A stretch of DNA of 37,865 bases, from positions 1-37,865 of the forward strand of contig JAUXXD010000188.1 of assembly GCA_030681265.1 (NCBI GenBank). Direction: 5' to 3'. The translations under genes were made by a program, and so were the position numbers. The notes beneath the pieces were generated by a model that saw nothing but the letters and a program-made list of their open reading frames with translations, was not told where the DNA came from and did no database searches. Of the stretch, positions 7,486 through 37,110 are shown piece after piece; the stretch's first letter is position 1, and each line of letters opens with the position of its first letter. The stretch is from Candidatus Didemnitutus sp. (GTDB lineage Bacteria > Verrucomicrobiota > Verrucomicrobiia > Opitutales > Opitutaceae).

Positions 7486-7605
7486 GTTCAGAGGAGTTGA
7501 GGAATGATTCTCACCCTAGAGACTTAAATCCGCGCCAGCCACCAGTAAGTGCAAGTGAGGGAGCAACCATTAGTCCATTCTGCGGGCTCCCAGTGCTTCC
7601 CGCTT

Positions 7606-7860
7606 ATGAAATTGAAGGTTGCGCTGGTGTGTCCGGGTCAAGGGATCGACACGAGCAACGCGAATCCGGCGGGGCGGTTGCAAATGCACGTCCTGATGGC
7701 GGTCGCAGAGTTCGAGCGGAGCCTGATTGGTGAGCGGACGCGGGCCGGATTGAGGGCGGCGGTCGCGCGAGGGTCGATCCTCGGTCGCCCCAAAGTAACC
7801 CTTCCAAAAGATTGGCGAGCACTGGTGGCCGCTTGGCGCGAAGAGACCGGCGGCAAGGGC
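7606..7860 (+). pseudogene. Truncated serine recombinase (resolvase/invertase) remnant
   Basis: From ATG 7606 the frame encodes a stretch typical of the second half of the resolvase catalytic domain: GIDTSNANPAGRLQMHVLMA, then AEFERSLIGERTRAGL, then ARGSILGRPK. The N-terminal part, which carries the catalytic serine (normally about 60-70 residues earlier), is absent. The C-terminal DNA-binding helix-turn-helix is also missing after about GGKGYHR. The open frame continues to 8181, but from about 7862 onward it is only the antisense of a helicase remnant. It is therefore a dead internal fragment of a mobile-element gene, fused to another fragment near 7860. Identification of the family is good; the exact ends are approximate. 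Confidence 0.75.
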
Positions 7861-7861
7861 T

Positions 7862-8212
7862 ATCATCGACGCCTCGTCGACGATGAAGACCGTGTCGTGA
7901 TCGATGTCGTTGTTTCGCGTCTCGAAGTAGAATTTGTAGGTGACGTCGCCGTTTTCGTCTACCTCCCGGTATTCCTTGAGGTCGCGAAGCGAATAAATGC
8001 TGCGATGGATGGTGCCCGCTTCGATTTGGTGTCGGTCTCGCAGCACGTAGGCCGCTCGACCGGTAGGGGCCGTCATCACGGTTTGTCGACGAGAGGCCCT
8101 GAGATATCGCAGCAAGCCGCCGATAAGAAACGTCTTACCGGTTCCCGCGTAACCTCACCAGCTGGATCACGGTCGGAGTGATCCATGAAAGAGCATCTGC
8201 GTCTGGCGGAGT
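7862..8212 (-). pseudogene. RecD-like ATP-dependent helicase remnant with frameshift
   Basis: Reading leftward, a frame from about 8212 encodes ADALSWITPTVIQLV. It then shifts by one base at 8155 into GYAGTGKT (8154-8131), a perfect Walker A. APTGRAAYVL, TIHRSIYSL and the Walker B-like VFIVDEASMI follow. This order (Walker A, motif Ia PTGRAA, TIHR, DEAS) is that of COG0507/RecD-type superfamily 1 helicases. Deleting the single extra base at 8155 would restore QLV-GYAGTGKT. After DEASMIA, near 7862, helicase similarity stops at the junction with the recombinase remnant. So it is both frameshifted and truncated, keeping only about the first 115 residues of the ATPase domain. It is surely non-functional unless a sequencing error is involved, and even then the 3' part is missing. 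Confidence 0.75.
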
Positions 8213-8370: not shown

Positions 8371-8445
<75 letters not shown>

Positions 8446-8640
8446 ACGTGGCTCCCACAAGGGGAAGGGCCAAAAAGAGGTTCGGCTCAGGCGTTGTCAA
8501 CACCGCTCTCCTCGAAATTGTGGCTTTTCGAGTCACTGCGCGAAAGTTTTGTTTGCTTCGCTCGGACTCGGTCTCTCAACTCTCGCCTCTTTTCCATTAC
8601 GCCTGCCTCCAATTCCGGAGTCACAGGGGGAACGAAACTC

Positions 8641-9369
8641 ATGAAATCCTACCAACTCACCGTCAATTCCCGCGCTGGCACCGGCCGCAGCGCCTCGCGC
8701 CGTCTGCGCAAGGCCAATCAGATTCCGGCCATCCTCTACGGGAAGCACACCAGCCCTGAAACTTTGGCCGTTAGCGCGCCGGAGTTCGTTAAACTCCGCA
8801 AGGCGATCGCCGGCCGTGCCGCGCTGATTCAGTTGAATCGCGAATCCGGCGCCACCTCACTTTCCTTTATTCAGGAAATTCAGCGCGATGCGATCACCGA
8901 TCTTTACCTCCACCTCGACCTTCAAGAAGTGAAGGAAAACGAAAAGATGGTCATCAACGTCGCGGTGCAACTCGTCGGCGAGTCCACGGGCGTGAAGAAC
9001 GAAGCCGGCACACTCGACACCCAGGCGCACCGCCTCCGCATCCGTTGCTTGCCGAAGGATCTGCCGGAAGTGCTCGAAGTGGACGTCACCGAACTCAAGG
9101 TCGGTCAATCCATTCACGTCAGCGAACTCAAGCCGGTGGCCGGCGTCGAATACCTCGATGCCCCCGGTCACGTGGTCGTGCTTTGCGTCGCTCCGGTGGC
9201 CGAAGAAGCGGCATCCACGCCCGCAGCCGATGCTGCGGCTCCCGTTGCTGGTGCCGCGGCGCCCGCCGCTGGTGCCGCGCCCGCCGCTGGTGCAGCCGCT
9301 CCGGCCGCTGGTGCAGCCGCTCCGGTCGCCGCCAAAGCCGCGGCCAAACCGGCCGCCGCCAAGAAGTAA
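8641..9369 (+). CDS. rplY: 50S ribosomal protein L25 (TL5/Ctc type)
   Basis: The protein has 242 residues from ATG 8641, preceded by AGGGGG about 9 nt upstream, a good ribosome-binding site that decides this start over upstream in-frame codons. Residues about 3-95 are the L25 domain that binds 5S rRNA (start YQLTVNSRAGTGRSASRRLR, then PAILYGKH). Residues about 100-195 are the TL5-type C-terminal beta domain (for example LPEVLEVDVTELKVGQSIHV). The last 45 residues are a low-complexity Ala/Pro/Gly tail with AAGAA-type repeats ending in KPAAAKK. Long-form L25 with an Ala-rich tail occurs in several phyla. It precedes pth by 60 bp, the common ctc-pth pairing. Very sure. Confidence 0.96.
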   Translation: MKSYQLTVNSRAGTGRSASRRLRKANQIPAILYGKHTSPETLAVSAPEFVKLRKAIAGRAALIQLNRESGATSLSFIQEIQRDAITDLYLHLDLQEVKENEKMVINVAVQLVGESTGVKNEAGTLDTQAHRLRIRCLPKDLPEVLEVDVTELKVGQSIHVSELKPVAGVEYLDAPGHVVVLCVAPVAEEAASTPAADAAAPVAGAAAPAAGAAPAAGAAAPAAGAAAPVAAKAAAKPAAAKK

Positions 9370-27674: not shown

Positions 27675-27748
27675 TGCCTGGTGGTGTAATGGTAGCACAG
27701 CAGACTCTGACTCTGCTTGTCTAGGTTCGAGTCCTAGCCGGGCAGCCA
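27675..27748 (+). tRNA. tRNA-Gln(CTG)
   Basis: The acceptor TGCCTGG pairs with CCGGGCA, with discriminator G and an encoded CCA. The anticodon stem GCAGA/TCTGC has loop CTCTGAC, anticodon CTG. It is the last host-type gene before the phage-like segment, so it is the first candidate for an integration site. Confidence 0.94.
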
Positions 27749-28145: not shown

Positions 28146-28582
28146 CGACGAAACCGGCGCAACTGAGTGCGGATGATGTTCGCCGATTACTCTCGGGCGC
28201 TTATCCGACGAAAGAAGAACTGCCGTTGTTGCCCGCGTCGCTTGATTACCGGCTTGCCACCGGCTACCGCGACGGCGGAGAGCAACGCCGACTATTCGAC
28301 CGCTTGGCGTCGTGCGAGGGATTAGTCCTCGCCATCGCGCTCCGACGCGGGTTGGCGGAAAATGTTCTCGCCGCTGCAATTGGGGTCAGCACGTCGGCAA
28401 TCGCGAAACGCCTGCGAGTGTTCGCGCTGCGCCGGCCACGAGGGAGACAAGGCTTTGCCAAGCGGGTCGTCAACAACTGGCGAGTCGTGGTTACGACGGG
28501 GACGCCGGAAGCCAATCAATCGTCAGGCCGTGCAGTATCGCCGTGCGATCAGTCGGCACGATCAACGCAATCCGCAACTTGA
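28142..28582 (+). CDS. Hypothetical protein with HTH-like segment; 3' end overlaps an opposing gene
   Basis: The protein has 146 residues and starts within the ATGA overlap at 28142. Residues about 68-95 (LRRGLAENVLAAAIGVSTSA then IAKRLRVF) fit a helix-turn-helix, and the following stretch is strongly basic (RRPRGRQGFAKRV), so DNA binding is plausible. The last 30 residues lie antisense to the end of the opposing structural gene (92-nt overlap) and look random (polar Ser/Gln/Thr). The native stop may therefore have been lost, and the functional protein may end near residue 116. With its upstream partner it forms the only rightward transcription unit of the phage segment. No closer family is recognised. 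Confidence 0.55.
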   Translation: MTTKPAQLSADDVRRLLSGAYPTKEELPLLPASLDYRLATGYRDGGEQRRLFDRLASCEGLVLAIALRRGLAENVLAAAIGVSTSAIAKRLRVFALRRPRGRQGFAKRVVNNWRVVVTTGTPEANQSSGRAVSPCDQSARSTQSAT

Positions 28583-30320
28583 GGCGGCGCCCTGAAATGC
28601 CGATTCCGCAAACCTGCTCCTCGCGCGGATAAGCCTGCCAGCGCCACTTGCCCGCACGTCGCCCGTCTGCCTCGGCGAAAACGCCAACCTCGGCCACGGT
28701 GTTGCGCTGCCAGTGCAAGCGGACTTGAACAAATTCCTTGAAGGTGTCCGGCTCGCCCATGTCTTCGGGGTTAAGCTCGAACAGGCACAAGTGACACTCA
28801 TTATTGAAGCGCGTAAATGGGTCGCCACTTGCTGGGTCAGGCGCCCAAACACGAATGCTCTGAGAAATTCCAGAATCGTGAACAACGGTGAACTCTTTCC
28901 CGCTGTCTGTTCTGCCGACGTATCGCGTGAACGAACCGAACCCGTCAGAACTATAATACTTCGAGGGCATGTCGCCCGCATAGTTGACTTGCAAGAACCC
29001 TTGGACGTAGGACATGTCGGCGAATCGCAAATGCCCGCTTGCGGTAATGCCGACGACGACGCAACTACTGTTGTCGCGACACACACAGGCGCACTGAAAT
29101 AGAGGGTAGAGAAAAGGGCCGGTGATAGAAAATGCCCGCTGGTCGTAACAGTAGAGAACATTGCCGTTCAATGTTGCCGAATACGCCCAAAACCAAAGTC
29201 GGCCATTGTTGGCATCGTAGGCGGCGAACGCCCTGCGGTCTGTCGAGGGAATGCCGTCCTCGCCGCCAATCGGTCGCGTGATATGGGAATTCCAACTGCC
29301 CGCGCTGCGATTGGTCGCAATCTGCGAGTCTCGGCGTTCTTTCTGGTCGTAAGCTCGTCCATTCGATTGCGGGTTGTAAACTTCGCCATCCGTCCCGAGA
29401 TAAAACGGGTTGCCGCTGGTGTCGCGCACGCAGTCGGGATTTACCGCCCCGGCCGCAGCGGCCATCGGTCGCTGGCTCCCTTTCCATCCATCCGACGAAC
29501 CTTCGCCCGCGTAGGCGTCGATTGCCACCACGCCACGATTCCCCAAGTGTGCGACCACCTGACTGCCCGACATGCTCAGTGCGGTGATGGTTGAGCCGCG
29601 CATCCCGTGGATGTCGAGGTATGACCATTCGGCAGACTTGATGCCATCGACCGATGGATATTGCGCCGTTGGGCGCTCGCTCATCCAAATGCGCACGCCG
29701 TTGCTTGTCTGATTACCTGCCGCGTAAAGTATGCCGTTGTTGTCGCGAATGAACGACGTGCAGGGAGGAAAACGCGCCTGCGACGGATTGTTGATGTCAC
29801 CGCTCCCGCCCGCTGAAGGGCCGAACTCGTAGAGCGCGCCGTCCTGCCAAACGAGATTCGCGTCGTGCCCGTTGCCGAGAAGCAACCGGTTGCCAATCCA
29901 AGTTCCGAACCACTGCGCGTAAGAAACCTTGTCCGCGTAAATACCGCCAGGCGCGGCTACCACTACGCTAGATGATGACCCGAATCCCTTGGTCGTTGTG
30001 CTGGTATTCACATGCCAGATTCCCTTAAAGACACCTCCGCCCGCGCCGCCAAAGTGGAATGCCACAAGAAATGTATCGAGGCCGCGAGAAACGGTAAGGA
30101 AGTGGGTTTTGTTATCCGTCGCCCCAACCTCGGTCAGCTTGTTAATTGCGCTGGTGCGGATGTTCTGGCCCCAAACGCCAGACCACACAGGTCCAGTGCT
30201 CAACGTGCCGACCGGTGTAGGCGCGACGCCAATCGCCATGCGCAACGTGCCGCGATCTTGGTCAACCCCGTCATAGTTCGTCTCGATGCCCGAGAACCGG
30301 CGAATCGCAAAGTGTTTCAT
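28491..30320 (-). CDS. Large phage structural protein, beta-rich, unknown family
   Basis: The protein has 609 residues. It starts MKHFAIRRFSGIETNYDGVD with no signal peptide. The composition is rich in Gly, Ser, Thr, Asn and aromatics with few long helices, and many short strands recur (for example GIYADKVSYAQWFGTWIGNR and RLWFWAYSATLNGNVLYCYD). This suggests a beta-propeller or similar beta-repeat virion protein, such as a tail stabilisation or receptor-binding component. I do not recognise a named family. The start overlaps the stop of the upstream small coiled-coil gene as ATGA. It is the last gene of the leftward operon; its 3' end overlaps the opposing small gene. Confidence 0.75.
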   Translation of the reverse strand: MKHFAIRRFSGIETNYDGVDQDRGTLRMAIGVAPTPVGTLSTGPVWSGVWGQNIRTSAINKLTEVGATDNKTHFLTVSRGLDTFLVAFHFGGAGGGVFKGIWHVNTSTTTKGFGSSSSVVVAAPGGIYADKVSYAQWFGTWIGNRLLLGNGHDANLVWQDGALYEFGPSAGGSGDINNPSQARFPPCTSFIRDNNGILYAAGNQTSNGVRIWMSERPTAQYPSVDGIKSAEWSYLDIHGMRGSTITALSMSGSQVVAHLGNRGVVAIDAYAGEGSSDGWKGSQRPMAAAAGAVNPDCVRDTSGNPFYLGTDGEVYNPQSNGRAYDQKERRDSQIATNRSAGSWNSHITRPIGGEDGIPSTDRRAFAAYDANNGRLWFWAYSATLNGNVLYCYDQRAFSITGPFLYPLFQCACVCRDNSSCVVVGITASGHLRFADMSYVQGFLQVNYAGDMPSKYYSSDGFGSFTRYVGRTDSGKEFTVVHDSGISQSIRVWAPDPASGDPFTRFNNECHLCLFELNPEDMGEPDTFKEFVQVRLHWQRNTVAEVGVFAEADGRRAGKWRWQAYPREEQVCGIGISGRRLKLRIALIVPTDRTAILHGLTIDWLPASPS

Positions 30321-30472
30321 TGGGGTGCAGGGAGAACGATTTGAATGTTGTGCGCGCCGTAAATGACTTGGCCGGTGCCTCCCGCGATCTCGATATTCAA
30401 CAAGGGCAGAATCCGCGCCTCAAGTTCGCGAATCTTTTCCTCAAGTGCGGCGATGCGTTCGGCGTCGGTCAT
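30317..30472 (-). CDS. Small coiled-coil phage protein
   Basis: The start ATG 30472 overlaps the stop of the upstream gene (ATGA), giving 51 residues; a longer reading would overlap that gene by 70 nt. TDAERIAALEEKIRELEARI is a clean heptad coiled coil at residues 2-21. A short strand-forming tail follows (GTGQVIYGAHNIQIVLPAPQ). The next gene starts inside its stop codon. The architecture, a short helix bundle plus a beta tip, suggests a trimeric virion fibre or whisker-like piece, which is an inference. Confidence 0.7.
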   Translation of the reverse strand: MTDAERIAALEEKIRELEARILPLLNIEIAGGTGQVIYGAHNIQIVLPAPQ

Positions 30473-31110
30473 TTGGCTTGTGCGTAGAGGGTTTCCAAAA
30501 CGTAGATGTCGCCCATCCATTTGCGCGGGACTGACCACATGACTAGCTCGTTGCGGCCATAGACCATCGCAATGTATTCGTCCGCGCTCGGGGTCGTGTA
30601 GTCGTTAATTACCGATGTTGCGACGCCATCGGCATCGAACGCTTGGAACTTCTTGTGCTCAAGAATGGCTTCAGGATGCCCGAGGGAATAGCGCCGATTC
30701 AACCGGCAGCGCGAGCGCAGCGTCGTTTGACTGTTGCGAAAGTAAAACTCGGCGGGCGCGTAGAGCGCACTCAATGCAACGCCGGGGAAGGTTTCAACGC
30801 GGTCGATAAATTCATCCCACTCTTGCGGCACTTCGGCGAAGACGCGCCGCAAGTAGCAAACCGTATTGTCTCCCGCCTTCTCGCGCACCGACTGCGCCAC
30901 GATCACCGCGTTAGTGAAAACGGGGTCGAGCGTCGTCGGGTTTTCCAGTGCGACGATGTATTCGGCCTGATCTTCAACGCGCATTTCATAATCGCGCGTG
31001 ATGATGCGATTGTTTCGCTGCGTTGGTGAAACGCCAGATTCAGCCCGAAAGCCAAACTGAATGCCGCGCCCAATCACCGGAGGCCCGAGAGATTTGAGAG
31101 GAGTCGGCAT
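30469..31110 (-). CDS. Phage protein, unknown (structural operon)
   Basis: The start ATG 31110 shares a base with the stop of the upstream repeat protein (TGATG), giving 213 residues. The sequence has mixed alpha/beta character, with phrases such as EDQAEYIVALENPTTLDPVF, VCYLRRVFAEVPQEWDEFID and the C-terminal WMGDIYVLETLYAQAK. Aromatic-rich strands near the end resemble tail or virion accessory proteins, but no family is recognised. Coupled translation on both sides marks it as part of the same structural block. Likely a tail-completion or connector component, inferred from position only. Confidence 0.75.
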   Translation of the reverse strand: MPTPLKSLGPPVIGRGIQFGFRAESGVSPTQRNNRIITRDYEMRVEDQAEYIVALENPTTLDPVFTNAVIVAQSVREKAGDNTVCYLRRVFAEVPQEWDEFIDRVETFPGVALSALYAPAEFYFRNSQTTLRSRCRLNRRYSLGHPEAILEHKKFQAFDADGVATSVINDYTTPSADEYIAMVYGRNELVMWSVPRKWMGDIYVLETLYAQAK

Positions 31111-32996
31111 CAGGTCGGGATTGTTTTTAGAATGGCGAGAGAACCCTGATAGAGAATGCGCCCGTCGCCGCGAATTTCCATGTCCACAACACACACGCGC
31201 CGGAACGCCAACATCGATGCAACAAACTCCGTGACAGGATTCAGCCCGGCCACGAAAATAAGGTCGGACTCACTGAATGCGACGGATGCGATGGTCTTCG
31301 GGCGGACAATCAGGAGCGAATCATCGTAGGCCAGCGTCCCGCCAAGGCTGCGCCGCCCGCGCGTCACGGGTAATGCCGTGACCGCTTTCATCACTTCGAC
31401 GCCGCTCGGCTTGCGCACAAACGGAAAGGCGTGCGCTTCAATGCCCGAGGCTTCGGCTTCGGCTCCTTGGCGCGGAGTAATCGAAATACTCGGAAGACTT
31501 GTGTAGCCGCTACCCGCATTCGTCACGATAATGCCCACAATCGAACCACCCTCGACCGTTGCGAGCACGGTCGCCGTTGAACCACCGACGCCAGCGGGAG
31601 GAGCCGTTACCGTCACCACGGGCGCACTCGTATAACCAGAACCCCCACCGGTTAGCGTCAGGCTTGCGATTGGCGAACCGTCTAAAATGGCGTTGGCTGC
31701 CGACGTTCCGCTGCCGCCCCCGCCAGTGAAAACTACCGTTGGGGCGCTTGTATAGCCACTGCCACCCTCGATCACCTGCAAAGAGTAAATACTCGACTTC
31801 TGAATGACTGCCGCCGTCGCCGACGCGCCGCTGCCGCCCCCGCCAGTGAATCCGATTGTCGGCGCACTGGTATATCCGCTCCCGCCGTTTGTGACAGCGA
31901 CGGATAGCAACTTTCCTGCGCGCGAATCGCCAAGATAGACGGTGAAATTCGCGCCGGAACCAGATACGGAAGTAATGGCAAAACTTGGGGCGGAAATGTA
32001 ACCAAAACCGCCCGCCGTAATTGTGGCGCCTGTGACCAATCCAGAGCTATTTGTTGTCACATAGCCCGACGCGCCGCTGCCGCCGCCGCCAGTGAAAACC
32101 AGGGGTAACGTCGTGCTGACTGGATAGCCTGAACCGAACTCAACCAGGCTCATAAAATTCACAAAGCTGGAAGCTCCAACGTTCGCCACCGCCGTCGCGC
32201 CCGTGCCGCCGCCGCCAGTGATCGTTACAGTCGGAGAACTTGAATAGTTTGACCCGAGTGCAGACAACCCAATCGAAACCAACTTCCCTATGTTCGGGTT
32301 GACCGTGGCAATTGCCGTCGCGCCCGTGCCGCCGCCGCCAGTGAATGAAACAGTTGGCGCGCTTGTCAGGTCATTGTCGAAGCCGGTGATTTGCAGCGAT
32401 TGGACGCTAAACGATGTCCGCGCTAATGTCGCCGTCGCCGACGCGCCGCTGCCGCCCCCGCCAGTGAATCCGATTGTCGGCGCCGTCAGGTATTTGCTAC
32501 CATGCGATACCAGAATGAGCGACAACACCGGCCCCGACGTTGCTGTTACCGCCGCCGTGGCCGTGGCCCCTGTGCCGCCACCGCCGACGATGCTGATGGT
32601 TGGCGCAGCACCAAACCCGCCGCCCGGTGCCGTGACGTAAATTTTGCGCAGTTGGCTTGTCGGCGGCGTGCGCCCCTCCAACAGCCAGACACCGTTACCA
32701 CCCCGAGCACTTACCGGAGCATCATCCCATGCGAGAGCGCCCGGCACGCCGCCAGCAACGGCGAAGGTCGCCAAGTGCCGATTGTTCATCCGGTCAACCC
32801 ACTCGATCGCGTTAGGGAAACTGGTATTTTCAAGACCATACACAAACCCGAGCTTCATGGTAACGCCAGCGGGCGCGAAAAACCCATTGCCGTTGTGAAA
32901 GCGCAGGAGCCAATTCACAGGGTCGCCTAGCACGAAAGGCGGCACATCTGCCGCGCCTGGCTTTGTTGGGTCGGTGTAGATCGTCAGGTTTGGCAT
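31110..32996 (-). CDS. Phage virion protein with about 41-residue glycine-rich tandem repeats
   Basis: The start at ATG 32996 gives 628 residues. A longer reading from 33140 would overlap the upstream gene by 140 nt. The N-terminal 120 residues are a non-repetitive domain (PNLTIYTDPTKPGAADVPPF). From about 120 to 500 at least seven clear units with T-G-G-G-G-S/T-G-A and SGYTSAPTV cores repeat about every 41 residues (123 bp), plus two or more degraded units. A C-terminal domain (about 505-628) is again unique. The repeats resemble those of tail-fibre or capsid-decoration proteins in other phages and would form stacked beta units. It probably builds a fibre or surface spike. Its stop overlaps the next start. 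Confidence 0.82.
   Translation of the reverse strand: MPNLTIYTDPTKPGAADVPPFVLGDPVNWLLRFHNGNGFFAPAGVTMKLGFVYGLENTSFPNAIEWVDRMNNRHLATFAVAGGVPGALAWDDAPVSARGGNGVWLLEGRTPPTSQLRKIYVTAPGGGFGAAPTISIVGGGGTGATATAAVTATSGPVLSLILVSHGSKYLTAPTIGFTGGGGSGASATATLARTSFSVQSLQITGFDNDLTSAPTVSFTGGGGTGATAIATVNPNIGKLVSIGLSALGSNYSSSPTVTITGGGGTGATAVANVGASSFVNFMSLVEFGSGYPVSTTLPLVFTGGGGSGASGYVTTNSSGLVTGATITAGGFGYISAPSFAITSVSGSGANFTVYLGDSRAGKLLSVAVTNGGSGYTSAPTIGFTGGGGSGASATAAVIQKSSIYSLQVIEGGSGYTSAPTVVFTGGGGSGTSAANAILDGSPIASLTLTGGGSGYTSAPVVTVTAPPAGVGGSTATVLATVEGGSIVGIIVTNAGSGYTSLPSISITPRQGAEAEASGIEAHAFPFVRKPSGVEVMKAVTALPVTRGRRSLGGTLAYDDSLLIVRPKTIASVAFSESDLIFVAGLNPVTEFVASMLAFRRVCVVDMEIRGDGRILYQGSLAILKTIPT
31813..31865. repeat. 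Copy 1 of a perfect 53-bp in-frame direct repeat
   Basis: Bases 31813-31865 are identical to 32431-32483 (offset 618 bp, 206 codons). Both encode the TGGGGSGASATA core on the minus strand. Identity at synonymous sites points to recent copying within the gene. Confidence 0.9.
32431..32483. repeat. Copy 2 of a perfect 53-bp in-frame direct repeat
   Basis: Identical to 31813-31865; the flanks then diverge. Neighbouring weaker copies end near 32220 and 32343 with an exact 123-bp period. Confidence 0.9.
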
Positions 32997-32998
32997 GG

Positions 32999-33916
32999 TC
33001 AGCAGAATCGCGGTCGGATGCGCGTCGGGGTGTTCGTTTGCGGCGAGCAAAGCAAGCGGAGTTGCGTGCGCGCCTTGTCGGCCTTCATACGCAAGCCTTC
33101 GGTGTTTTCGCCCGCATACTTCTTGTAAGTAATCGCCCACTCAAAGCGGATGATCGGCAAAAGGATTTCCAACACCTTGTCGGCTGGCATACGCGGCAGG
33201 GTCGAGCCGGACGTGATGCGCCCCGGCAGGACGTAGGTAGTCAGGTTCACCACTGCCGCACGGTCGGGCAGGGGATAGACCACAAAGCGCACGGCATAGG
33301 CCGCAGACGCCAGCAACGCCCCCGCGTCGGCCCGATAAAACAGCGGTCGGCCAGTCTCGTAGGACGCGCCGCCCGTGATCCATGACACACCACCAAAGTC
33401 GGAGGCGAAACTTGCGCGGAGTAACAACTCATCGCGTTGACCAGACAACGGCGACAACGGCCCATGCCCTTGCAACTCGGGCGCGTCCATGACCTCAACA
33501 ACGGAGGCGTCGAGCGGAATCGAATTGTGATAGAACGTCGCGCCAACGGTGCCGGTAGCATTGTTGAACGGTTCAACAAACTCTTGATTCGCGCCATTCA
33601 GGCCCGCGTAGGTGTAGAATGTCGTCCCGATACGCACGACGGAGCCAACCGTCGAAACGCTCGGCGTCGTGCCGGTGAATACATTGGAGCCTTGCGTGAC
33701 GCCAATTGATACCTCGACCGGCGCAAGGAATCGCACACCAAACGAACGCTTCGCCCAAGGTGGTCGGCGCCCATCGATCGGCGCATAGCATTCGAGCAAT
33801 CCCTCGTTAATGACCTGCATGGCTAAATCCAAGTCATCGTCGAGGTCAGTCGCAGTTGGCCGGCCCGACAGTCGGGCAAGGTTCAGAAGTAGATCGTCGA
33901 AATCGCCAGCGGCCAT
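32999..33916 (-). CDS. Phage adaptor/connector-like protein
   Basis: The protein has 305 residues. A good ribosome-binding site (GAGGAGG) lies about 11-14 nt before ATG 33916. The N-terminus is helical (MAAGDFDDLLLNLARLSGRP, then DDDLDLAMQVINEGLLECYA), as in head-tail adaptors whose helices bind the portal. A beta-rich insertion (about 65-125) follows, then a helical C-terminal part with MPADKVLEILLPIIRFEWAI. The end KARTQLRLLCSPQTN is helical as well. It follows the capsid genes and precedes the repeat protein, the place for a connector or tail-terminator, but no named family is certain. Confidence 0.75.
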   Translation of the reverse strand: MAAGDFDDLLLNLARLSGRPTATDLDDDLDLAMQVINEGLLECYAPIDGRRPPWAKRSFGVRFLAPVEVSIGVTQGSNVFTGTTPSVSTVGSVVRIGTTFYTYAGLNGANQEFVEPFNNATGTVGATFYHNSIPLDASVVEVMDAPELQGHGPLSPLSGQRDELLLRASFASDFGGVSWITGGASYETGRPLFYRADAGALLASAAYAVRFVVYPLPDRAAVVNLTTYVLPGRITSGSTLPRMPADKVLEILLPIIRFEWAITYKKYAGENTEGLRMKADKARTQLRLLCSPQTNTPTRIRPRFC

Positions 33917-34505: not shown

Positions 34506-35996
34506 TTAGCCAGTGAACGCGACGGGCACGACGCCCGGCACGGTAGCAGCGCCTTCGACAATGACGAAGTTCTTCGCCAGCGCGCGGCGGTCGGTGAAGA
34601 CGCTCATGCCGCGAATGCCTTGCAGACCGAACGCCTTCAAATGCGCATCATCGGGTTTACCGACAACATGGAAGTCGTCAGTGTGAACGATGGGTCGCGC
34701 ATCTTCGGAGCCGGTAGCGTAGAACAGAGCTTCGCCGCCTGTGTGCATCGCCCAATTGATCGGAACGCCCTCACGCGTGCAGGGGATGATGATTGCACCA
34801 GACGGATGCGCCAGCGAGAAACGGCCAGCGGCTTGCGCCGTGACGTTGCCGCCGCCATTCGTGCCGCCTGTTTGTGTCGCGCTACCACGCGTGACGCTCG
34901 CGATTTGCTTCGCATCGGCATGGACGCCCGCCGCCGTGTATTTCACGATTTCGTATTTCTTGTCCGTGCGATGATTGTAGATCATGAAATAGTAATCGTT
35001 GCTGTCAGACGGCAGCGATTCGTTTTCCGTGATGAACCACGAGTAGCCGGGGAAGTAGGCGAAGTAATCGCTATCGCCAGCGGCGTCGGTCGTGCCGCCA
35101 CCGGTGACGGTCGTTGGCGTGGTGTCCGCAATCGCCGTGCCCAAGTAGGCGACGGGGGCGAATGGGGAACCCTGACGACCATCGGCATCGTCCTGCTTGA
35201 TGTTGTGCGGGTAAATGACGTTGTTGTTCCACAACGGATATTTGCCCGTGAACAGCGGATTGCCTTCACCGCGCAACGCGCCGTATTGCATACCCTGCAA
35301 GTAGGACGAATTACTGCGCAGCGGACTGAGAAACGTCTCGGGACCGAAAAACAGATACTTGGGAATGGTCGCGCCCATTTGGTCGGTTTCCATCCCGAGT
35401 TCGCTGGCGCCCATGCTCAACAGCGTGCTCTTGCCGTTGTCGATAAACGACGGCGTAAGCGTATCGGTTGAGCGCAGTTGGTCGCGAGTGGTGCCCGAAT
35501 GGCCGTTGGTCACGCGGAGCAAGTTGGTGCCCGGTGCGACGAGCAACGCGTGATTGCGAAGACGAATTTGAATATCGTCGTCGTATTTTCGCGTATACCA
35601 ATCGCCCATCAAATCGGAGGTGATTTGATCGACCGTGCCGCCCATGCGGAGCTTCTTGAGGATTTGCGTCCACGAGATAGCATGACGCATCAGATCGACG
35701 CGCACACGGAAGGTATGCGGTTTGATCTTGGCCGTCTTGGTCTTGAGTTCTTGCTCGCCGCGCACGCCTTGACCGCGAATCGCGGACACGAGCGTAAACA
35801 CAACGTCTTGAGCCTGACCGGCGCTCAAGTCTTGTTTATTGACGACAGGCATTTTGCTGCCTTCGCCACCACGGAAATTTTTGAAAACAGATTTTTCGTC
35901 CACCGTTTTGAGAACCTTGCGGCTCCAAACGGTAGCGCGAATATCGGCATTAGCTGCGACCAAAGTTTGATAACTGGTCGGATTAGTGATGCTCAT
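34506..35996 (-). CDS. Putative major capsid protein (N4-gp56/DUF4043-like)
   Basis: The protein has 496 residues. AAGGAG about 12 nt upstream of ATG 35996 gives the strongest ribosome-binding site of the segment, as expected for the most abundant virion protein. The start (NPTSYQTLVAANADIRATVW), the segment with FRGGEGSKMPVVNKQDLSAG, a basic-helix region near residues 90-155 (LMRHAISWTQILKKLRMGGT), and SGAIIIPCTREGVPINWAMH fit the phage-capsid group around N4 gp56/DUF4043. I cannot confirm this by alignment. It follows the scaffold-like gene and precedes a terminator, the usual arrangement. No N-terminal prohead protease is present in the visible order. Confidence 0.75.
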   Translation of the reverse strand: MSITNPTSYQTLVAANADIRATVWSRKVLKTVDEKSVFKNFRGGEGSKMPVVNKQDLSAGQAQDVVFTLVSAIRGQGVRGEQELKTKTAKIKPHTFRVRVDLMRHAISWTQILKKLRMGGTVDQITSDLMGDWYTRKYDDDIQIRLRNHALLVAPGTNLLRVTNGHSGTTRDQLRSTDTLTPSFIDNGKSTLLSMGASELGMETDQMGATIPKYLFFGPETFLSPLRSNSSYLQGMQYGALRGEGNPLFTGKYPLWNNNVIYPHNIKQDDADGRQGSPFAPVAYLGTAIADTTPTTVTGGGTTDAAGDSDYFAYFPGYSWFITENESLPSDSNDYYFMIYNHRTDKKYEIVKYTAAGVHADAKQIASVTRGSATQTGGTNGGGNVTAQAAGRFSLAHPSGAIIIPCTREGVPINWAMHTGGEALFYATGSEDARPIVHTDDFHVVGKPDDAHLKAFGLQGIRGMSVFTDRRALAKNFVIVEGAATVPGVVPVAFTG

Positions 35997-36054: not shown

Positions 36055-37110
36055 TCAACCGGTCTTGCCGAGCATCTCGTCGAGTTGCTTGGCCGTCATG
36101 TTGTTGATGTCCCGTGTCAGTTGTTCGCGTGTTGGCGTAAAAGTGCTGTTTGGATTCGCACTGCCGGGTTCAAGAACCTCGACCGAGGTCGCGCGCACAG
36201 CGGGCGCAACGGCTTGCTTCGTCGGATTTGGTTGGTTCGCGCTCGGGCGCGCAGGCGCATTGGCCGTGCCGTCCCCGTTTGCTTTCCAACCTTTCCCCAC
36301 GGCAAATTCACGGGCCATGATGAGCGGCCAGCGTGGAGAGTCGAAAACGCCCTGATATTCGGGGTCTTCTGATTTCAGCTTAATGAAGGCATCAAATTCT
36401 TTCCGCCCAGGGCTTTCTTTGTCCCTGAGTGATGGAAATTCCTCAATGGCCTTCACCGTATGTTGCTGTTCCTTTTGCCGGAAATCTTTTTCGCCGGAAG
36501 TGGCGACATCCGCCTTTTTCGCTTCGGCTTGCTGTTGCAGTTGGGCGATGGCGTTTTCTGCCTTCATCGCTTCGCGCGTCAGACGGGCGATTGCGGCCAT
36601 GTCCATTTCGTCGGCAGCGGTCGCGAGTTTCTTTTCGATCTCGGCGAGGACTTCCTGCTTGGCCGATAATTCGTCAACCGGCGCGGCTTGCGTCTCGGTT
36701 TCGCCCTTCGCGGCGTCGTTCTTCGGTGAGGACTGCTCGCCGTAAACCTTCGAGAATGCTTGCTGCATCGAAAGGCCGGGCGCACCACCGCGCGGCTTCA
36801 TCAGCCGTAAAACCTCCTGCTCCTTAAAGTCGGCAGGCTTGACCTTGATCGCCTTCGGTTGGTCGTCCTCCTCCTTGGCTTGCGCTTCATCGTCGAGTTC
36901 CGTTTCTGTCTTCGTCTCGACTGGCGCAGGTTTCGCTTCTTGAACCGGCTCCGGCTCGGGCTCGGGCGCGGCGGCGGGGACATCCGCCAATAGCGCGTCC
37001 ATTTCGGCGACGCTAAATTTGGGCAATTCGATATTTAACTGCTCCGCAGTCGGTGCAGGTGGGGCTTCGGTTGCCGGGGCAGCGCCCTCGGCAATGGCGG
37101 GATTACTCAT
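36055..37110 (-). CDS. Putative phage scaffold protein
   Basis: The protein has 351 residues. The N-terminus is disordered and rich in Pro, Ala and Glu (APEPEPEPVQEAKPAPVE). The middle (about 150-225) is a charged coiled coil (KQEVLAEIEKKLATAADEMD, ENAIAQLQQQAEAKKADVAT). A folded C-terminal third follows, with SPRWPLIMAREFAVGKGWKA and a final helix INNMTAKQLDEML. This architecture and its place directly before the major capsid gene are typical of head scaffolds, which are highly diverse in sequence. The assignment rests on composition and position, not on motif identity. Confidence 0.7.
   Translation of the reverse strand: MSNPAIAEGAAPATEAPPAPTAEQLNIELPKFSVAEMDALLADVPAAAPEPEPEPVQEAKPAPVETKTETELDDEAQAKEEDDQPKAIKVKPADFKEQEVLRLMKPRGGAPGLSMQQAFSKVYGEQSSPKNDAAKGETETQAAPVDELSAKQEVLAEIEKKLATAADEMDMAAIARLTREAMKAENAIAQLQQQAEAKKADVATSGEKDFRQKEQQHTVKAIEEFPSLRDKESPGRKEFDAFIKLKSEDPEYQGVFDSPRWPLIMAREFAVGKGWKANGDGTANAPARPSANQPNPTKQAVAPAVRATSVEVLEPGSANPNSTFTPTREQLTRDINNMTAKQLDEMLGKTG

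Follow-up and report, generated by a model that had tools for sequence, protein, structure and literature searches.

Can the repeat array of a prophage gene gain, lose and exchange units by recombination, and what kind of protein would carry such an array? The question is raised by a gene, here called rep, in a 37,865-nucleotide contig of Candidatus Didemnitutus sp.; this whole stretch of DNA is referred to below as the window. An earlier look at the letters of the window (the original prediction) took rep for a phage virion protein whose glycine-rich repeats had recently been copied within the gene and might change in number or order by recombination, with consequences for fibre length or receptor contacts. 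The gene has ten repeat units, a sharp-edged patch of identity between two of them and orthologues with other unit numbers, and it stands in a prophage setting. Our main reading, to which we give a probability of about 0.6, is that rep encodes a structural, probably tail-associated prophage protein, with an array that would act as a spacer or arm and would change by homologous recombination between units.

The rep gene and its units

The reading frame begins with an ATG at 32996 and ends with a stop codon at 31110 on the minus strand (31110..32996), encoding 628 amino acids. Translation, a hidden Markov model (HMM) of the unit and syntenic orthologues divide the product into an N-terminal domain, ten units of approximately 40 residues and a C-terminal domain. 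The conserved N-terminal domain (residues 1-113; 32658..32996, minus strand) is 47-50% identical to that of the orthologue at L172, a locus from IMG/VR, and is also kept at L176. The array, U1-U10, occupies residues 114 to approximately 515 (31452..32657, minus strand) according to the unit HMM. The conserved C-terminal domain (residues 516-628; 31113..31451, minus strand) aligns with 43% identity to L172 and 50% to L176.

Units of approximately 40-43 residues were placed by the repeat HMM at starting residues 116, 157, 198, 239, 279, 321, 363, 403, 443 and 486. Seven contain the motif GGGG[ST]G[AT] (residues 138, 179, 220, 261, 303, 385 and 425), and the GGGG core is missing from the other three of the ten. 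The final residue of the canonical core is A in six units and T in the last, so that the at least seven G-G-G-G-S/T-G-A units originally counted are six under a strict fit and seven under a loose one. The accompanying statement that some are spaced exactly 123 bp holds, because the core-to-core spacings in the DNA are 120, 246, 126, 123, 123 and 123 bp, three of them exactly that length. Tandem Repeats Finder reported no array at rep. An approximate consensus for the unit, read from alignments, is VxxVxVTNGGSGYTSAPTVxFTGGGGxGATATA, which rep satisfies with ten units by HMM. Read directly, the units have no pattern of glycine at every third residue and no long Gly-X-Y run.

Prophage setting

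The genes on the upstream side of rep, all on the minus strand, include a probable scaffold gene (36055..37110), whose name was inferred from its adjoining the capsid gene and from syntenic homologues, and the gene for the major capsid protein (34506..35996; PF13252, E = 1.5e-11; phrog_334, E = 5.7e-21). BLAST places homologues of the immediate upstream neighbour, g305 (32999..33916, minus strand), behind the capsid gene of L169, L170, L171, L172, L174 and L176; for L029 this was judged by eye. Neither PHROGs nor Pfam gave a match to g305, whose place suggests a head completion or adaptor protein. The downstream neighbour, g212 (30469..31107, minus strand), has homologues that follow rep in L172 and L176. 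The long gene nearest the attachment site on this side, g609 (28491..30320, minus strand), has homologues in L029, L171, L172 and L174; it is possibly a tail protein. No PHROG or Pfam match was found for g609 either, and hhalign comparison with the repeat-bearing viral proteins of 670-750 amino acids gave no support for kinship (E = 0.16, probability 0.4%). The downstream order is capsid, g163, g305, rep, g212, g609 and then a tRNA-Gln gene at 27675-27748.

The 3′ end of that tRNA-Gln(CTG) gene (27704..27748, plus strand) serves as the attachment core: its 45 bp recur exactly at positions 3495-3539 of contig C53 of the same genome (G000), beside the gene for a 453-amino-acid integrase (phrog_1, E = 6.1e-8). 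With the tRNA-Gln end duplicated beside an integrase, the block is most likely an integrated prophage, with its other end on C53, a contig not seen joined to the window. The name ‘phage virion protein’ is backed indirectly by the place of rep in a block of scaffold, capsid and adaptor-like genes; this gene order suggests that the protein may be located in the virion itself.

Other traces of mobile DNA were seen in the genome. On contig C103 (L167, G000), next to tRNA-Pro, are a second integrase gene, part of the gene for a large protein and a portal gene akin to the one in the Geminisphaera prophage; this may be another integration site or another prophage, and the portal may or may not belong with the rep prophage. 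On C53 (L166, 1205-2044), beside the phage integrase, is a tyrosine-recombinase ORF of 280 amino acids that matches Phage_integrase at E = 4e-14 over part of the domain only; we take it to resemble an integron integrase whose C-terminus has been replaced. In the window, fragments of a RecD-like AAA helicase and of a serine resolvase (PF00239) overlap at 7549-8178, adjoining tRNA-Asn at 8371-8445; they are probably the remains of another mobile element. Separately, 21-bp tandem repeats at 9220-9341 encode the Ala/Pro/Gly-rich tail of ORF 8494-9369, presumably an L25-like ribosomal protein.

Repeat number among related phages

Related loci in GTDB contigs and IMG/VR were retrieved with an alignment of four capsid proteins. 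Searches of viral contigs with the capsid protein alone found nothing, and with the whole rep protein found no relative; tblastn searches of phages with rep and with a viral repeat stretch likewise gave none, for which the low-complexity filter of BLAST may be the cause. Related capsid genes were found in 3 of 188 genomes besides the source genome, at three loci in GTDB contigs and at three in IMG/VR; the named relatives retrieved by the alignment are Opitutia and Opitutales records. By reading of the sequences, the capsid-bearing relatives, L176 and the window amount to eight distinct phages.

In three of the eight (the window, L172 and L176) rep lies between homologues of g305 and g212. It is missing there in the other five, where g305 precedes other genes: Geminisphaera colitermitum TAV2 (L027 = L169 = L173), Opitutia CSSed10 (L028 = L170, where the short contig soon stops beyond g305), L029, L171 and L174. 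The unit HMM had no match in the scanned parts of L170, L171 and L174; L029 was judged by eye.

The L172 orthologue, between its g305 and g212 homologues, has 885 amino acids and 15 detected units, and that of L176, in the same gene order as the window, has 398 amino acids and 4 detected units. The end domains of the three proteins align throughout, enclosing a repeat region of approximately 4, 10 and 15 units in L176, the window and L172, respectively. The array therefore lengthens or shortens in evolution. The original prediction had proposed comparing relatives as the check on a changing repeat number; the number is not constant, and the change is borne out at the level of related phages. 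No exact internal duplicate of at least 20 bp was found in the L172 orthologue, nor one of at least 18 bp in that of L176, which means that neither shows patch copying.

Several weaker resemblances were collected. Weak matches to the C-terminal domain in two Opitutales genomes were rejected, the loci being type II secretion-like (L180) and efflux-like (L181), both named by reading. As an orthologue, L178 was also rejected: only 49 residues of the C-terminal domain matched, in a 113-amino-acid ORF that has no units. The N-terminal domain has weak matches at L031 and L032 and a similarity to the last ORF of L022 that we consider too weak to count. In two of the phages that lack rep, the genes after g305, of 948 amino acids (L027, 7602-10448) and 612 amino acids (L028, 309-2147), appear by eye to repeat a g212-like module.

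Recent copying between two units

The longest exact duplicate in rep is 54 bp, in frame, and joins the core of U2 (32430..32483, minus strand) to that of U7 (31812..31865, minus strand). The copies are offset by 618 bp, or 206 codons, exactly five units. A perfect duplicate of 53 bp had been claimed; the exactness stands, and the length is corrected to 54 bp on full extension. A shorter exact duplicate, 31 bp long, has its copies 123 bp apart in U3 (32314..32344, minus strand) and U4 (32191..32221, minus strand).

Codons were compared in a block of 20 about the core for the 21 pairs of the seven canonical units. The U2/U7 pair has 18 same-residue positions, and the codons are identical at all 18, while the other 20 pairs agree at 150 of 236 (63.6%). 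Identity of U2 with U7 ends at once on both edges of the patch; outside it, in a wider block, codons match at one of six same-residue positions. As a yardstick we used rep and 113 other ORFs with at least two units and no ambiguous bases in the array, from at least 120 viral loci picked by the unit pattern and then scanned with the unit HMM. Among the matches listed, the 54 bp of rep is the longest exact internal duplicate in these 114 repeat ORFs, the next being 26 bp. Permuting synonymous codons gene-wide over the seven units gave 54 bp in none of 5000 trials (maximum 32 bp); permuting within codon columns, which share ancestry, reached it in 4 of 5000. The claim of recent intragenic copying thus gains from the 18 identical codons and from both permutations, and the U2/U7 identity is best read as probable gene conversion, a recent copying of a sharply bounded patch.

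Three other explanations were weighed. U2 and U7 could be matching members of an older segmental duplication of five units, in which later divergence spared the cores. Their offset of exactly five units fits this, as does the clear variation in unit number within the rep family; but U3 and U8, which come next and are likewise five units apart, agree at just 8 of their 13 same-residue codons, one codon in six is common to the flanks of U2 and U7, and a recent duplication of five units would leave a long identity that is absent from rep. We regard such an origin as unlikely. Slightly less likely again is strong conservation of the glycine-rich core combined with biased codon use, with no recent copying at all. 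Within the canonical units the core is indeed conserved most strongly, the 63.6% agreement shows that codons tend to coincide even in pairs other than U2/U7, and particular pairs do so closely (U2/U5 at 11 of 12, U4/U5 at 7 of 7). Against conservation of this kind stand the permutation counts (0/5000 and 4/5000), the limit of 26 bp in the 113 other ORFs among the matches listed and the abrupt stop at both edges. That a short-read assembler created the identity by joining reads across the repeat is highly improbable even for an assembly in 220 contigs in which the contig with rep ends within the prophage, since ordinary short reads are longer than the 54-bp patch, each copy sits in its own distinct flanks, the frame is open through all ten units and orthologues with whole arrays are present in independent data.

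If gene conversion produced the patch, its age can be approached through L172. In units 2 and 7 of L172, the corresponding core stretch matches at 32 of 54 bases. U1-U6 of the window compare with L172 at a mean identity of 0.473 at offset 0 and 0.373-0.453 at offsets 1-8, a collinearity that 1.7% of random unit orders fit as well, and both arrays have an odd insert of two residues at one and the same place in unit 5. Because of the divergent L172 cores, the collinearity and the common insert, these comparisons suggest that U2 and U7 predate the split of the window from L172 and that the identity of the patch is younger. The collinearity is weak, and U7 of the window is closest to unit 3 of L172 (0.73), above unit 7 (0.53), so a rearrangement of blocks may have occurred. 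As to direction, the recurrence of the IGF/VGF residues of U2 in units 1 and 2 of L172 favours U2 as the donor, and the 23 bp of the core common to U8 favour a source in U7/U8.

The unit in other proteins

At the sensitivities used, the repeat unit has no convincing match in Pfam, NCBIfam or the PDB sequences. For the N- and C-terminal domains, Pfam, NCBIfam and PHROGs gave no match within the limits applied, and among known fibre families no match to these non-repeat domains was found. Sixteen PHROG families do match rep (phrog_701, 708, 460, 19630, 2885, 5342 and ten others), with their best stretches within the repeat region; their annotations include virion structural, baseplate wedge, head closure Hc2 and tail fibre. 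Many virion and bacterial proteins that otherwise differ contain the repeats. The matches to named phage proteins lie wholly in the repeats, so that a fibre role of rep and any contact with receptors would be conjectural. A search of the literature by motif letters found nothing, a statement limited to searching of that kind.

Among the matches listed, 123 ORFs match the unit HMM at E = 0.001 (from rep, as P0001, plus at least 120 viral loci), and in the viral contigs the carriers of the unit belong to many protein families and have 1 to 9 units detected. In another viral protein family, L063 and L071 differ by a clean two units (80 residues) between flanks that are 73% identical, and L080 and L102, of the same non-rep viral family, also show a clean two-unit difference (80 residues). 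Among genomes of relatives, 24 of 95 have a unit match, the source genome included; in the latter rep is the one match at E = 0.001, with no second. A DNA pattern for the unit hit 9 places in that genome, compared with 20 for the reversed control.

Secreted-type proteins of Opitutales reach up to 53% identity over residues 240-462 of rep. In two Opitutaceae-level relatives (L036, L037), pilM/N/O/Q-like genes, named by reading, are followed directly by genes for long secreted-type proteins that contain the unit. An ABC-transporter-like protein of 656 amino acids (L040, 3192-5162) has two units seemingly inserted near its N-terminus, between transmembrane segments, and one further bacterial carrier is a 675-amino-acid protein that reads as glycosidase-like.

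Single-sequence AlphaFold2 prediction of rep gave a mean pLDDT of 40.4, and a five-unit model from an 18-row alignment gave a pLDDT of 52.4 and a pTM of 0.55. Both low-confidence models have about three short strands per unit. Foldseek found no match at E = 0.001 or better in BFVD or in the PDB; pectate lyases and tailspikes were frequent among the PDB hits, all with E above 1, and carry no weight here. A beta-solenoid fold of the array would be plausible.

Proposed mechanism and significance

In the mechanism we propose, the two conserved end domains would anchor the protein, and the glycine-rich, presumably beta-type units of approximately 40 residues would form a spacer or arm of adjustable length. 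Unequal exchange between units, probably by recombination, would alter their number, while gene conversion would copy short patches from unit to unit and so homogenize the cores, the 54-bp identity of U2 and U7 being probably one recent case. The array may affect adsorption.

The array might instead be a receptor-binding or host-mimicking surface akin to bacterial secreted proteins. Some of the long secreted-type Opitutales proteins with the unit are encoded just after pilQ-like secretin genes, and their similarity to rep, at up to 53% over residues 240-462, would suit such a role; yet the source genome has no other copy of the unit at E = 0.001, the base composition of rep is that of its neighbours, and viral contigs of various kinds often carry the unit. 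We consider this improbable and prefer the spacer or arm. A bolder proposal, tentative enough that we would sooner doubt than adopt it, is that the unit is an unclassified mobile beta-repeat fold common to phages and to Opitutales secreted proteins, used in this phage group as a recombination-tuned arm, with unit number and surface patches that gene conversion continually resets.

Phage structural proteins with repeat spacers of variable length are already known. What rep adds is a small natural series, approximately 4, 10 and 15 units between the same ends, and, within a single gene, a patch of recent conversion; with these, one could measure how fast units are gained, lost and homogenized. 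A further lead is a repeat common to many phage proteins and to bacterial secreted proteins that lies outside Pfam, NCBIfam and the PDB at the sensitivities used.

Comparison with known systems

The collagen-like fibres of Escherichia coli prophages (EPcl) have a repeat region between other domains, and its length varies by multiples of the motif (PMC3368898). As in the EPcl proteins, the length-variable repeat region of rep is flanked by non-repeat ends. The repeats differ: that of EPcl is a collagen triplet, with a heptad coil, whereas the rep unit has approximately 40 residues and about three predicted strands. The fibre ORF67 of the Stx2 phage Sp5 also has collagen-like domains (PMC5155283). 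Unlike collagen-like phage fibres, rep has no run of Gly-X-Y triplets, so it may work like them but is not a member of their family. The repeat-bearing PHROG families have the approximately 40-residue unit in common with rep, but their matches cover the repeats and leave the end domains of rep unmatched.

For the tail-fibre adhesin of T4, to go by a title of Tetart et al. from 1996 (J Mol Biol 258:726, as listed in PMC6957217), duplications of a small domain reportedly expand the host range. That adhesin is a different protein with a different motif, and the effect on host range belongs to T4. By analogy, EPcl, Sp5 and the T4 adhesin are the nearest precedents for rep, whose mechanism would be of the same kind.
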